NCBI GenBank assembly: GCA_009840385.1
Contig: VXNX01000013.1
Coordinates: 510,222 to 574,221 of the forward strand
DNA: 64,000 nt
Source of the DNA: Candidatus Dadabacteria bacterium
Lineage (GTDB): Bacteria; Desulfobacterota_D; UBA1144; Nemesobacterales; Nemesobacteraceae
Direction of reading: 5' to 3'
The stretch's first letter is position 1. Every line of letters begins with the position of its first letter. Shown piece after piece: positions 22,954 to 42,152 of the stretch. The position numbers and the translations under genes are program-made. The notes under the pieces are model-generated. The model was given only the letters and a program-made list of their open reading frames with translations. It searched no databases and was not told where the DNA came from.

Positions 22954-22982
22954 TTGACACCGGAGGCCCTAGCACGTAGAGT
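22954..22982 (+). promoter_or_regulatory. Promoter of the cobalamin riboswitch transcript
   Basis: TTGACA (22954-22959), 17 nt spacer, TAGAGT (22977-22982), directly in front of the riboswitch. The -35 sits in the loop of a perfect 7 bp inverted repeat CCTCCGG/CCGGAGG (22944-22966), which may be the grxC terminator stem or a protein operator. Confidence 0.6.
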
Positions 22983-22989
22983 TATCTTC

Positions 22990-23185
22990 AGATTCAGGTT
23001 AAGGGAATCGGGTGAGAATCCCGAACTGTTCCCGCAGCCGTAATAAGGGTTTTTTCCATGCCCTAGCGGAGCGCGCCTGCGCTTCGGGTCACTGGCTTTG
23101 AGAAAAGCCGGGAAGGCCGCATTTGGAAAACCAGTTCTGTTTTGACAACAGATGGCCCTTTGAGTCGGAAGACCTGCCTGCGTCA
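22990..23185 (+). ncRNA. Cobalamin (B12) riboswitch
   Basis: The leader of the BtuB-like gene contains the conserved cobalamin aptamer blocks: GGGAA paired with TTCCC, GGTGAGAATCCC, the CCCGCAGCCGTAA core (about 23030-23042), GGGTCACTGG with GCCGGGAAGGC (about 23086-23117) and a 3' B12-box-like GTCGGAAGACCTGCC (about 23164-23178). Order and spacing match the family. It should turn expression down when adenosyl- or other cobalamin is plentiful. Confidence 0.93.
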
Positions 23186-23245
23186 ATCTAGTAGCTTTGC
23201 CTCGGGAGTTAGGCGCATGATCTATAGAAACACATTTTTCGTTTT

Positions 23246-23343: not shown

Positions 23344-25281
23344 ATGAACGGCCTTAAGGCATTTTTTACCTTTATTTTGCTTGTGTTCCTGTTCCCGCAC
23401 GCGGGTTTTTCCGAGCAAGAGGAACCGAAAAAGATCATAGTAACGGGGACAAAAACCTGGATTGACGTCGACCGTCTAGGGTCTTCCGTTACCGTCATCA
23501 ACAGAGAGGAGATTGAGAGAAGCGGGGAAAAAGACATCTCGTCCATACTCTCGAGAGTAACGGGATTCAACGTAGTCGGCACGGGAAGCCGTGGAGGCAA
23601 CTCCTCGATTTTCGTGAGGGGCGGTCAGTCGGATTACAATCTCGTGATGATAAACGGCGTTCAGATAAACCAGGCCGGAGGAGGTTTCGACATCTCTTCT
23701 CTTACTACCGAGAGTGTAGAGAGAATAGAGATAATAAAAGGCGCACACTCTTCTCTTTACGGTTCAGACGCGGCGTCTTCCGTTATAAACATAATAACGA
23801 AGCGCGGCAGCGGAAAAATCAAAAGGACAGGATCAGTGGCCCTAGGATTCCGTGCCGAAGACGCCATGATCCTCGAGCATTCCGCGAGTGTATCGGGCAG
23901 CTTGGAGAAACTGGGATATTTTCTTTCTCACCAGAGAATCGTCGATGAGGGCATTTTAGAGATCAACAACGATTACAAAAACAATAACTTCACGGCAAAC
24001 CTGAACTTGGAAGCAAGCGATAATTTAAATCTCTCCTTCTTCTCCTTATACAGAGACTCAAAGTTTGAATTCCCGACCGCAGGCGCGGGGGACAGATTCG
24101 ACGCTTTCGCCGACCCCGACAGCCAGACTAAAGAAAAATCATTTATCACGGGTTCGGACATCGTTTTTTCCCCGACGCAATGGTGGGAGAATTCACTTAA
24201 GATCGGCTATATGAGGCTTGACCGGGAAAGCTACGATGGTCCCGAGCCCGTTGAACTGGATGGGGCAGAGTCAGAGTTTGACACTCTCGACAAAAGAATA
24301 TCCCTTGAATACGGGTCCAGCCTCTTTGTCGACCTTGATCAGATCTCGAGCATAATCTCAACTGGGTTTGAGTATGAAAAGGAAAGCTTCAAGACCGACT
24401 CCCTAGATGAATCAAGAAAAAACTACGCCTTCTACGCTCAGAAAAACCTCGCACTGCTTAAAACGTTTTTCGTAACAGCGGGCATAAGGTATGACGACAA
24501 TGAAGCGTTCGGGAGCGAGTGGAGTCCGAGCATCTTCGTTAAGTGGAAGGTAAAAGAATCGGGAACCGAGATAAGGGGAGGGGTAAGCAGGGGAATCAAG
24601 GAAGCGAACTTCTTTGAAAATTTCAGTACGGCTTTCGGAACAATACCTAACCAGGACCTAAAACCCGAAGAGACCCTGACCGCGGAAATAGGCATTAATC
24701 AGCCGCTGTTTGACAACGCGGTCGAATTCGACCTGAGCTTTTTCCAGAACAAATTCAAAAACATTATCGCCTACAGTTTCACACCTTTTGAGAATGGAAC
24801 TAACTACGAGAACATAAGCCGTGCGGAGTCAGAGGGCGCAGAAGCCGTAATCCGCTTCTACCCGAGCGACACTTTAACTCTGAGCACAGCCTACACGTAC
24901 GTTAAAACCGATGTGACTGACGACGGCGGCTTGGGGTCTGCGGCCTTTTCCGAAGGGGAAAGGCTCATACGGGTACCCGAACATTCGCTCTCATTTAACG
25001 CAGGATATTCAAAAAACGCTATTAACCTCAGTCTTTCGGGAAGCTACGTAGGCAGCAGGGATGACGTGGACTGGAGCGGGTTTCCGAGCACCAGAGTTAA
25101 AAACGATTCTTTTTTCCTCGTTGACGCGGCGGCTTCCTACGAAATCAGCCTGAAGGGGTTTGTCGACAAAATCAGGCTGTTCTCAAGAGTAAACAACCTG
25201 TTCAATAAGGATTACGAAAATGTTTTCGGCTTTTCATCCCCGGGGTTCAGCATGATTTCAGGAGTTTCAGTAGTGCGGTAG
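23344..25281 (+). CDS. btuB: TonB-dependent cobalamin receptor, BtuB-like
   Basis: Outer-membrane receptor, 645 residues. Signal peptide 1-23; a possible TonB box near KKIIVTGTK; plug domain (about 40-150) with VFVRGG-type motif IFVRGGQSDYNLVMINGV and IEIIKGAHSSLYGSDAASSVINIITK; then a beta-barrel to the C-terminus with SRVNNLFNKDYENVFGF. GGAGGAGC precedes the ATG. The B12 riboswitch upstream is the best evidence for the ligand. No btuCD is in the window; a BtuF-like protein is at 36933. Confidence 0.92.
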   Translation: MNGLKAFFTFILLVFLFPHAGFSEQEEPKKIIVTGTKTWIDVDRLGSSVTVINREEIERSGEKDISSILSRVTGFNVVGTGSRGGNSSIFVRGGQSDYNLVMINGVQINQAGGGFDISSLTTESVERIEIIKGAHSSLYGSDAASSVINIITKRGSGKIKRTGSVALGFRAEDAMILEHSASVSGSLEKLGYFLSHQRIVDEGILEINNDYKNNNFTANLNLEASDNLNLSFFSLYRDSKFEFPTAGAGDRFDAFADPDSQTKEKSFITGSDIVFSPTQWWENSLKIGYMRLDRESYDGPEPVELDGAESEFDTLDKRISLEYGSSLFVDLDQISSIISTGFEYEKESFKTDSLDESRKNYAFYAQKNLALLKTFFVTAGIRYDDNEAFGSEWSPSIFVKWKVKESGTEIRGGVSRGIKEANFFENFSTAFGTIPNQDLKPEETLTAEIGINQPLFDNAVEFDLSFFQNKFKNIIAYSFTPFENGTNYENISRAESEGAEAVIRFYPSDTLTLSTAYTYVKTDVTDDGGLGSAAFSEGERLIRVPEHSLSFNAGYSKNAINLSLSGSYVGSRDDVDWSGFPSTRVKNDSFFLVDAAASYEISLKGFVDKIRLFSRVNNLFNKDYENVFGFSSPGFSMISGVSVVR

Positions 25282-25293
25282 CGAAGCGAGTTT

Positions 25294-25405
25294 GGGAAGC
25301 TGTCTCAGCAGATGAGAATCAAGGGCCTGTCTCGACAGGCCCGGGTGGTTGCTTGAGTCAATCCGGCCAAAAGACCGGATGACATCTCATCCGCAGGCAG
25401 CTCCC
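25294..25405. other. Multi-hairpin structured element between convergent genes
   Basis: A 112 nt segment folds on paper into a closed three-way junction. The outer helix is GGG/CCC plus AGCTGTC (25298-25304) with GGCAGCT (25396-25402), and GATGAGA (25311-25317) with TCTCATC (25385-25391). Inside are two hairpins: GGGCCTGT/ACAGGCCC with a CTCG loop (25323-25342) and ATCCGG/CCGGAT (25361-25380), joined by an 18 nt linker. No T-run follows. It could be a structured RNA, a bidirectional terminator or an interspersed repeat; I recognise no known family and see no second copy in the window. Confidence 0.6.
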
Positions 25406-25430
25406 TGAATTTGCCCTTCCCTGATTCGCC

Positions 25431-26456
25431 TTAAGATTTGAATTCGGGAATTACCTCTTTGCCGAAAAGCTCAATTGAGCGCGTTATAACTTCGGCGGGG
25501 GCTTGAGGAAACACCATCCTGCACATTATGTTGCGGATCCCCGTTTTCTCCTCATATTTTTTTACCTCCCGGGCGCAGTGCTCAGGGGTGCCGATCATGA
25601 AACGGTCTTCCGCCATGTATTCAAAGAAAGGATCGTCGGGATCCGTTATGCTTTTTCCCCTTATCACTATTTTAACCCCGAGGCTCAGGTAAAACCTGTA
25701 CATGTTTATTATGTATTCGGTTCCACCGGCAAGAGCTTGTTCAGTACTTTCGCCCACGTAAGTTTCCCGAAGCAGTACGTGCTCCACTTCGGACGGATCG
25801 CGGCCGGCTTTTTTGGCTTCGTCATCATACCACCCGAGGGTATCCATGATCATTGGAACCGTCCTGCCGGGACCGATAAGAAGCGGGTAGCCAAGCCGCC
25901 CGGCCCTTCTTACGGCAGGTTCTTCGAAGGCTCCTATGTATATGGGTATGGGCCTCTGCACAGGCTTGGGAGTGACATCTATGTTCGAGAAACTGAACCT
26001 TTTGCCATCGTAGGAGAAAGGCCCGTCCTCCCAGCATTTTTCAATTATCTCTATGGCTTCTTCAATTCTCGAGGGTCTTTGCTTTATCGTAAGGCCGAAT
26101 CCTTCAAACTCCTCTTTTCTGTATCCTATAGCAACTCCTAGGTCGAACCTTCCGTTCGAAATCAGATCGACCGTGGCGGCATCCTCGGCGATCCTCACTG
26201 GATTATGAAGCGTGAGTATCAGGGCCCCGGTACCTATCCTCACCCTTTCGGTCACAGCCGCTATTGCGGCGGCCATCGTGAGAGGGGAAGAGCAGTAACC
26301 GTCCTCAAGAAAATGGTGCTCGGAGAGCCATACGGAATCGAAATTCACCGCTTCGGCGAGTTTTACGTGCTCCAGGGAATTTCCGTAAAGGTCCACATGG
26401 TCGTAGTCAAGATCCTTGTGGGTCTGCATGCTGAAGAGTCCTACTCCGAATTTCAT
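25431..26456 (-). CDS. Luciferase-like (LLM class) flavin-dependent oxidoreductase
   Basis: 341-residue TIM-barrel oxidoreductase of the bacterial luciferase family, using FMNH2 or F420. Visible are FDSVWLSEHHFLEDGY near the N-terminus, RVRIGTGALILTLHNPVRIAEDAATVD and GRFDLGVAIGYRKEEF, close to the alkanal-monooxygenase side of the family. A GGAGGT site precedes the ATG. Substrate unknown. Divergent from a second LLM enzyme, probably a functional pair. Confidence 0.88.
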   Translation of the reverse strand: MKFGVGLFSMQTHKDLDYDHVDLYGNSLEHVKLAEAVNFDSVWLSEHHFLEDGYCSSPLTMAAAIAAVTERVRIGTGALILTLHNPVRIAEDAATVDLISNGRFDLGVAIGYRKEEFEGFGLTIKQRPSRIEEAIEIIEKCWEDGPFSYDGKRFSFSNIDVTPKPVQRPIPIYIGAFEEPAVRRAGRLGYPLLIGPGRTVPMIMDTLGWYDDEAKKAGRDPSEVEHVLLRETYVGESTEQALAGGTEYIINMYRFYLSLGVKIVIRGKSITDPDDPFFEYMAEDRFMIGTPEHCAREVKKYEEKTGIRNIMCRMVFPQAPAEVITRSIELFGKEVIPEFKS

Positions 26457-26486
26457 TTCGTACCTCCGGTATATTGGCTGGATTAT

Positions 26487-26515
26487 TTGCCTTTGGACAG
26501 CAAATCAACCATAAT
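26487..26515 (+). promoter_or_regulatory. Promoter of the second LLM oxidoreductase gene
   Basis: TTGCCT (26487-26492), 17 nt spacer, CATAAT (26510-26515), about 45 nt leader to the ATG at 26567. Confidence 0.5.
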
Positions 26516-26566
26516 TTTAACCGTGATCGCTATCTACTTCCAAAACCATCCACGAGGTACTACACA

Positions 26567-27622
26567 ATGGGAAAAGAAATAAAATTCGGACTTTCGGCTC
26601 CGATGCCAGGAGCTGACGTTGACGGACTCGTAAATTTTTCGGTAAAGGCCGACCAGCTTGGATTCGACACCATATGGTACCCCGATCATCTGCTTTTCGT
26701 GGCACCGGGAGCCATCGCTCCCGAGGCGTGGACCGTAGCTGCGGCGGCAGCGATGAGAACGGAAAACATAGCTTTGGGAACGGTTTCCGATCCCCACAGA
26801 ATGCATCCTGCCGTTTTCGCCCAGAGGCTCGCAACTGTTGACCAGCTTTCAAAGGGTAGGGTAGTGCTCTCCCTCGGGGTAGGCGAATCGATGAATCTTG
26901 ACGCGTTTGGAATCGAGTGGGGAAAACCTCTTTCGAAGCTCAGAGAATCCATAGAAGTCATGGAACTTCTTTGGGAAACCGACGAACCCGCGGACTTTAA
27001 CGGGCAGTTCTACAATCTCGAGAGCGCGTTTTTGCAGATAAAACCCTACGAGAGAAACAAAATACCGTTTTACATGGCTACCCACACCCCAAAAGGACTT
27101 CAGTTGACGGGAGAAAAAGGCGACGGGTGGCTGCCGATAGATCTAAATCCCGATCTCTACTCCCATTACCTGGGAGAAATAAAGGCCGCGGCGGATAACG
27201 CGGGAAGGTCGCTTGACAACGGTTTCGATCCCGCTTTATGGGTATTCACCTCTCTTGGAGAAAGCGTTGATGCCGCCTACGAGACGCTTGAACCCTTCAA
27301 GTACGTACTGGTTATGCAGGACCAGCTGCTGAAGGCCGGATACGATGTCGAGATACCCGAAGAATATCACGGTCTTAACTACTTCAACATAGTTCCGACG
27401 GATGAAGAGGGAAGGCAGAGGTTCAGGCAGCTCGGACAGCTTTTCCCGAGAGAAGCCATACTTGATTTCACAATTACGGGGTCGAAAAAAGACTGCATAG
27501 AAAAAATCGAGAAATTTATAGACGCCGGGGTAAGAAATTTCGTCTTGTTCTACAGGTTCAGCCCCGATCCTGATCTGGCGCTTGAGACTTACTCGAAGGA
27601 AATAATTCCTTATTTCAAATAA
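26567..27622 (+). CDS. LLM class flavin- or F420-dependent oxidoreductase
   Basis: 351 residues from ATG 26567; the open frame extends 31 codons further upstream but the conserved KFGLSAPMPGAD begins here and GAGGT lies 8 nt before this ATG. LGFDTIWYPDHLL, TENIALGTVSDPHRMHPAVFAQRLATVDQLSKGRVVLSLGVGE-type motifs resemble F420-dependent reductases more than luciferase. C-terminal barrel strands end in NFVLFYRFSPDP. Cofactor cannot be decided from the sequence alone. Divergent from the LLM gene at 25431. Confidence 0.86.
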   Translation: MGKEIKFGLSAPMPGADVDGLVNFSVKADQLGFDTIWYPDHLLFVAPGAIAPEAWTVAAAAAMRTENIALGTVSDPHRMHPAVFAQRLATVDQLSKGRVVLSLGVGESMNLDAFGIEWGKPLSKLRESIEVMELLWETDEPADFNGQFYNLESAFLQIKPYERNKIPFYMATHTPKGLQLTGEKGDGWLPIDLNPDLYSHYLGEIKAAADNAGRSLDNGFDPALWVFTSLGESVDAAYETLEPFKYVLVMQDQLLKAGYDVEIPEEYHGLNYFNIVPTDEEGRQRFRQLGQLFPREAILDFTITGSKKDCIEKIEKFIDAGVRNFVLFYRFSPDPDLALETYSKEIIPYFK

Positions 27623-30030: not shown

Positions 30031-31188
30031 TTACTGGCCTAAAACTTTGAACCCGCCGTCTTGCTCTATTCCTACAACCGGGTCGTAAACGGCGTCTCCG
30101 TTAAGATCAAAATAGAAATCGCTGCCGTAAATACTGTTCTCCAGCCTCACATTCTCCATTGCGTCGCGAATCGCCTCCCGGTCGGTTGAACCCGCGTCAG
30201 CTACAGACTGTGCGAAAATCCTGACGGCTTCGTAGGCCCGTGCGGTAAAAGAGCTGGCATCTTCACCCGTTCTCTCTTTGTACTCGTCGCGGAACTTGCG
30301 GTTCTCCGGCGTATCGATGGAAGGAAGCCAGACCGTAAAGGTAAGCGCGCCTTTCCCCGCCCCGGCCTCTTCTTGCTGTGCGTCTCTGATTTCGTTGGTT
30401 GTGAGAAGAATTCCTATAATGGAAGCTTCCAGTCCGTCAACCCTTTCGGCCTGAACCAGGATTCCCGTGCGCTCTGTCCCCTGAGCCGACATGAATATAT
30501 ACTCTGCTCCTGAGTTTGCTATCTGGGTCAACTGGGCGGTCAGGTCAGGCAACTCTTCGCTTGAAGGTACTGTATAAGTCTGGTCGCTGACGATCGAGAT
30601 GCTTCGGTCCTTTTCAATCTCCCGCTTCACCGCCTCATAAGCGCTAGCTGAAAAAGTGTCCCCCGCATTTGTTATCATGGCCACTTTAGTATAGTTAAGC
30701 TCCCGCTTAGATTCTTCGACCCCGTGAGGAACCAGTCGCTCCACGGTGAGAGATGAACGGAAAAGAAATTCGCTTCGGGCGCTGAGCCCCATAGCGGCCG
30801 AGGTCGGGCTTAAAGAGACGGTCCTGTTTTTATCAATGATATCAATAATATCTTCGGTCCTGCTTGAACTGAAGGGACCGAGTACGGCTGCCACTTCGTC
30901 CTGTTCAATAAGCTTTGTGTACGCTTCCCGCACGGATTGCCGATTACTTTTGGAATCCCCAAAAATGAATCTGATTTCCTGGTCCCCGAGAAGCGGCGAT
31001 TCGTGAATTTCTTCAAGGGCAAACTCCATAGCTTTTCTCATGGACACGCCTATCGATGCGTGCGGGCCCGAAAAGGGAAGAACAACACCTACCGGAATCT
31101 CATTGGCGCTTTCCCTGTCATCGCAGGAGGCAAAAACCAGTACCGCAGCGACCGCGGCGAAGAGCATAACAACAGCAATTTTTTTCAT
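30031..31188 (-). CDS. Branched-chain-type ABC substrate-binding lipoprotein (LivJ-like)
   Basis: 385 residues, periplasmic-binding family 6. Signal peptide with lipobox FASC (cysteine at about 22), then IPVGVVLPFSGPHASIGVSMRKAMEFALEEI and VAAVLGPFSSSRTEDI, the usual first-lobe pattern. An AAGGAG site lies about 11 nt before the ATG. It follows the BCCP gene by 30 nt and precedes the OppA-like gene by 7 nt. Ligand could be an amino acid, amide or aromatic acid; no transporter subunits are adjacent. Confidence 0.87.
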   Translation of the reverse strand: MKKIAVVMLFAAVAAVLVFASCDDRESANEIPVGVVLPFSGPHASIGVSMRKAMEFALEEIHESPLLGDQEIRFIFGDSKSNRQSVREAYTKLIEQDEVAAVLGPFSSSRTEDIIDIIDKNRTVSLSPTSAAMGLSARSEFLFRSSLTVERLVPHGVEESKRELNYTKVAMITNAGDTFSASAYEAVKREIEKDRSISIVSDQTYTVPSSEELPDLTAQLTQIANSGAEYIFMSAQGTERTGILVQAERVDGLEASIIGILLTTNEIRDAQQEEAGAGKGALTFTVWLPSIDTPENRKFRDEYKERTGEDASSFTARAYEAVRIFAQSVADAGSTDREAIRDAMENVRLENSIYGSDFYFDLNGDAVYDPVVGIEQDGGFKVLGQ

Positions 31189-41705: not shown

Positions 41706-42152
41706 TTAAGCCGCCTCCGCGCATTTTCCGCATTGACCGAAAAGCTGTATAAAATGATCCTTCACGCGAAAACCCTGCCTTTCGACCGAAGCGTAATCAA
41801 AGCTTTCCACCGGACACTCGGGAAAATCGAAAACCTCCCTGCAGTCAACGCATACCATGTGATGAACATGCTCGCCCTGGGAAAACGCGTAGCCGTGGCC
41901 CCCGTCGGGGAAATGAAGGCGCTTCACGATGCCCAGGTCCTCAAACATCTCAAGCGTTCTGTAGATGGTGGCAAGCCCCGCGGCACCGAGCATTTCCTTC
42001 ACCCCGTCGTGTATTTCTCCGACCGAAAGCGATTTTCCGCTCGTGTGGAGAACATGAACGACGGCAAGGCGCTGCGTGGTGGACTTAAGTCCCTTTTCCC
42101 GCAGAACCTCCCTAGCATACAATTCCTGAGTGCATTCAAAATCTTTCATCAT
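41706..42152 (-). CDS. Fur-family metalloregulator (Fur/Zur type)
   Basis: 148 residues. Winged-helix DNA-binding domain with recognition segment ATIYRTLEMFEDLGIV (61-76); dimerisation domain with HVHHMVCVDC (H95-C104) and C141GKC144, giving two CxxC pairs for structural zinc. Fur, Zur or PerR identity is not decided; pairing with the MerC gene favours a zinc or other metal sensor. The start ATG has no Shine-Dalgarno, with TTTAAT seven bases upstream. A tandem operator overlaps the start. Confidence 0.88.
   Translation of the reverse strand: MMKDFECTQELYAREVLREKGLKSTTQRLAVVHVLHTSGKSLSVGEIHDGVKEMLGAAGLATIYRTLEMFEDLGIVKRLHFPDGGHGYAFSQGEHVHHMVCVDCREVFDFPECPVESFDYASVERQGFRVKDHFIQLFGQCGKCAEAA

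Follow-up and report, generated by a model that had tools for sequence, protein, structure and literature searches.

Between two convergent genes of an uncultured Candidatus Dadabacteria bacterium, a btuB-like receptor gene on the + strand and a luciferase-like monooxygenase (LLM) gene on the - strand, lies a 112-nt element (25294-25405) that, on balance, is probably a structured transcript-end element common to the mRNAs of both genes. All positions refer to the window, the whole 64-kb stretch of DNA that was analyzed. The convergent gene order, a very stable fold, the absence of a U-tract and the presence of Rho together lead to a shared transcript-end structure, and this reading is supported by the conserved position of the element, compensatory changes in one of its hairpins (P4), the missing U-tract and the rho gene found in the source genome. 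Several observations weigh against it: the pairing of the outer stem (P1) stays within a tree-aware null, the strand under selection is ambiguous, U-tracts are unconserved, a GGGTGG motif is superfluous for a simple end structure, and one genome of the genus (G004) carries a reduced version that the covariance model does not match. More broadly, a fold is kept between convergent genes in an uncultured lineage while its sequence drifts and the adjoining T-runs vary, and the genus provides a natural series in which to examine how transcripts of convergent genes are ended when no standard terminator is present; in other respects, the element matters mainly within its genus.

Genomic setting and fold stability

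The convergence of the flanking genes proposed in the initial annotation is borne out by their coordinates. The TonB-dependent receptor gene (23344-25281, +) has the Pfam TonB barrel and plug, and its top NCBIfam match is a B12 receptor model, with a score under that model's cut-off. Its close relatives in the named collection belong to Candidatus Dadabacteria at eight of nine loci, the remaining locus being a distant match from Bacteroidales. Upstream of btuB, a cobalamin riboswitch (RF00174, 67.8 bits) occupies 22979-23195 on the + strand. The LLM gene (25431-26456, -) matches PF00296 and passes the TIGR03619 cut-off marginally. A second LLM-type gene (26474-27622), divergent from the first, is 90-96% conserved in all 12 relatives searched. 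Farther along, an open reading frame at 30031-31188 shows 48-52% identity in six relatives vs 77-84% in two, and its neighbors behave otherwise.

Folding recovered the previously assigned boundaries, 25294-25405, and the enclosing stem with two hairpins. The predicted free energy is -56.0 kcal/mol (z -5.1) on the + strand and -61.2 kcal/mol (z -6.8) on the - strand; in the comparison with shuffled sequence that the initial annotation had suggested, none of 200 shuffles per strand was equally stable. On both strands, moreover, no 112-nt stretch of the window is more stable than the element: among 2282 sliding windows of this length, 2274 were counted as distant from it, and none of these matches its energy on either strand. 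The strongest z after the element among the 60 most stable windows (-5.5) belongs to 42001-42112 (+), which overlaps open reading frames on both strands.

Across the genus, the mean fold z of the locus is -2.8 (+) and -2.7 (-), compared with -1.9 to +0.2 for five control intergenic regions, and values of -2 or lower occur at the btuB/LLM intergenic region in 8 of 13 genomes (+) and 9 of 13 (-). Aligned identity of the element region is 0.68; three control regions are more conserved (0.84-0.89) and two less (0.61 and 0.44), which makes its conservation at the sequence level unremarkable. The sequence of the element drifts, whereas its fold persists.

Architecture, covariation and distribution

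The element as a whole (25294-25405) is defined, with no strand assigned, by its stability on both strands and by a covariance-model match at 25291-25409 (+, 109.3 bits, the source sequence being itself among those used to build the model). Its features are given here in + strand orientation. The outer stem, P1, pairs a 5' arm at 25294-25305 (GGGAAGCTGTCT, with one bulged A in the source species) with a 3' arm at 25395-25405 (AGGCAGCTCCC), and 142 of 156 P1 cells are paired over 13 sequences. Inward of P1, the outer stem continues as a segment with arms at 25308-25317 and 25385-25394. The initial annotation had described an outer stem of about 17 bp with small interior loops; the loops are present, and the minimum-energy fold has 20 pairs. 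That fold also contains the two expected hairpins, P4 (25323-25342; 63 of 65 cells paired across the genus) and P7 (25357-25383).

Three sequence types can be distinguished. Group A (G000, G005, G006 and L111) has the three-way junction initially described, which thus holds for the source species and its group, 4 of 13 sequences, and not as a genus-wide form; P7 and the inner outer-stem segment in this form are likewise limited to these four. The seven genomes of group B also carry P1, P4 and P6, their interior is different, and most add a hairpin with a T-run beyond P1 on the + strand. Group C (G009 and G011) has a short element. P6 is a short helix between TCAAG (25319-25323) and CTTGA (25352-25356), with 52 of 52 cells paired over four modelled pairs, one of them changed on both sides. 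Its 3' arm lies within a segment that had been taken for an 18-nt linker; across the genus this segment carries that arm together with GGGTGG (25343-25348), which is nearly invariant and unpaired in the core model. The genus-wide core comprises the outer stem, the P4 hairpin and the short helix closing the GGGTGG bulge.

Overall, 257 of 273 cells (94.1%) are paired in the 13 sequences, compared with 25-51% when partners are slid by one to three columns. Pairing was further evaluated against a tree-aware null, in which substitutions were re-placed randomly on the LLM gene tree in 1000 runs. For the whole structure, which was chosen with the same sequences in view and is biased in its favor to that extent, the null reached the observed paired cells in 18 of 1000 runs and the double changes in 1 (4 and 1 of 1000 on the btuB tree). 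Individual helices differ. P4 stands out, with paired cells reached in 1 and double changes in 2 of 1000 runs; P6 is borderline (double changes, 57 of 1000); P1 stays within the null (563 of 1000 for paired cells and 123 of 1000 for double changes), and slow change by itself could account for its pairing. Covariation therefore argues strongly for hairpin P4, and the search for covarying relatives proposed in the initial annotation did yield compensatory changes, those of P4 exceeding the tree-aware null.

RNAalifold prefers the + strand in every subset, and there are 40 G-U cells to 11 A-C cells. Selection on the + strand was considered from this excess, and the claim was dropped because the tree-aware null equals or exceeds the difference in 780 of 1000 runs. 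GGGTGG shows three changes over its six columns, tied for the lowest among 63 six-column windows (mean changes per column, 1.14), and, more than any other feature, it is left unexplained by a plain stem at the transcript end. A pseudoknot between GGGTGG and CCACC was rejected, as by eye only group B permits it and it is not conserved.

The two genes are adjacent in all 13 genus genomes and, by their coordinates, lie 105-227 nt apart. The element sits at the same position in 12 of them; the G004 version is too reduced, and that genome was excluded from alignments A2, A4 and A6 for this reason. A covariance model built from the 12 positive genomes gives one match in each and none in G004, and it matches the L111 contig, which lay outside model building and has the element in the equivalent btuB/LLM location, at 97.8 bits. 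Among the other 44 of 57 genomes of the class, searched with stricter filters that lose weak matches, the model has no match at E 0.01; two matches at E of about 0.8-0.95 in another family of the same order were taken as chance. In three genomes of other genera (G015, G017 and G019), relatives of the receptor and LLM genes lie close together and, by coordinates, are co-directional; the model search found no element there. The G009 LLM gene (L126:1627-2654) was matched as two pieces in a frameshift-like manner, possibly through an assembly error.

Gene trees may connect the element types with one flank. The LLM tree clusters G005 with G006 and L111 (and G000), G008 with G002, and G010 with G007 and G012, in agreement with the element types; the btuB tree, unlike the LLM tree and the element types, places G005, G008 and G010 elsewhere. 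As far as small trees with weak support at some branches allow, this disagreement hints that btuB may have been exchanged by recombination and that the element may be tied to the LLM side.

Transcript ends and alternative explanations

If the element ends both transcripts, btuB (+) and LLM (-) RNAs would enter the same near-palindromic stem, and RNA polymerase would halt at the stem or slightly past it, through Rho or weak intrinsic signals. The stem would presumably block 3'-to-5' exonucleases, fixing and protecting the 3' ends; it would keep the two genes apart, and RNA ends would be expected to map there. Precedents exist for parts of this scheme. Stable stems of Escherichia coli that lack a U-tract are considered to block 3' exonucleases (PMC5927463), and structured 3' ends lacking a U-tract are described for Streptomyces (PMC8269248). 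The hallmark of such protective stems, a stable stem downstream of a gene for which a U-tract is not required, is present here.

Signals for intrinsic termination are less uniform. Within 25282-25430, T runs reach at most three on the + strand and four on the - strand, so the initial statement that T-runs are lacking was nearly correct: none is long on +, and a loose T-rich tail occurs on -. In the source species, a GC-rich hairpin directly before a U-tract is found on neither strand. Among relatives, most have T-runs beside hairpins on one or both strands. On +, a downstream T5 run occurs in G001, G003, G007, G010 and G012; on -, P4/P6 is followed by a T-rich tail in G011 and most group B members. 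No terminator candidate was found on either strand of G009, and U-tracts are not conserved.

These T-runs, which count in favor of the transcript-end reading as well, keep a rival alive, namely that the element is a classical bidirectional intrinsic terminator, its hairpin region flanked by T-tracts, that has decayed in the source species. The convergent genes agree with this explanation, as does the minus-strand hairpin 25342-25323, which is followed by the T-rich tail TTGATTCTCA, is terminator-like by a loose scan and heads the resulting list. However, the scan yields many candidates by chance (37 found vs 24.8 expected), the + strand T-run of relatives lies several bases past its hairpin, and neither the short T-runs of the source species nor the lack of a candidate in G009 fits; we consider a decayed classical terminator unlikely. 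Of the three readings first proposed, a bidirectional terminator is nonetheless the nearest to ours, and the broader transcript-end structure is preferred over it because the source species lacks a U-tract on both strands.

It is quite unlikely that the element is a genus-restricted structured RNA whose near-invariant GGGUGG bulge, positioned beside P4 by the P6 helix, is a binding site for a protein or a target RNA. If GGGUGG were such a recognition site, the btuB 3' end would be a regulator, beyond a mere transcript end. A DNA-level element, or a mostly neutral palindrome without an RNA role, is improbable: P1 pairing within the null and the ambiguous strand would suit it, whereas the paired cells and double changes of P4 (1 and 2 of 1000) do not. 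Least probable is a btuB 3' UTR-derived small RNA, made under low cobalamin via the upstream riboswitch and using the GGGTGG bulge to act in trans, for although the riboswitch and the near-invariance of this unpaired motif suit it, the source species has no U-tract, the promoter scan found no sigma-70-like site and the element groups with the LLM gene, not btuB, for G005, G008 and G010.

The structured small RNA of the initial annotation is supported as far as a conserved, covarying fold is concerned; an independent RNA gains no support from the promoter scan, which covered sigma-70-like sites and found none in 25100-25600. Coding read-through past the btuB stop was also rejected; in some genomes the frame, as read from the sequences, continues uninterrupted over tens of codons, and it is broken elsewhere (TAG TGA in G008; indels).

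Relation to known systems

REP/BIME and MITE elements are palindromic intergenic folds with multiple dispersed copies. The present element resembles them in its palindromic intergenic fold and differs in being single copy at a fixed orthologous position. A repeat of this kind, suggested initially, was abandoned: the copy search in the source genome returned the element as one copy (one DNA match at E 0.001), the model gave one match per positive genus genome, and the position is the same in 12 of 13. The cobalamin riboswitch (RF00174) belongs to the same locus and lies upstream of btuB; the element lies downstream and matches no family. No Rfam 15 family passes its gathering threshold at the element, searched within the window and alone at E up to 10, and only the riboswitch upstream of btuB passes when the loci of eight genus genomes (of 13) are searched. 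A riboswitch or other known RNA at the element was rejected for this lack of an Rfam match. In the titles and abstract openings of literature on Dadabacteria (sponges, RNA), on Rho-linked and bidirectional transcript ends and on btuB small RNAs, the element is undescribed.

Two other known systems compare with the preferred transcript-end structure. The element resembles bidirectional intrinsic terminators of convergent genes (PMC5381666) in where it lies and in pairing near-symmetrically on the two strands; unlike them, it lacks a U-tract in the source species and has an extra helix and the GGGTGG bulge. Like the malE-malF type of 3' protective stem, from the E. coli operon set of PMC5927463, it is a stable downstream stem without a U-tract that is conserved in relatives; those stems are intra-operonic, whereas the element lies between convergent genes. 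Most likely, then, it is of an ordinary kind in a new sequence, conserved in one genus and belonging to no Rfam family.
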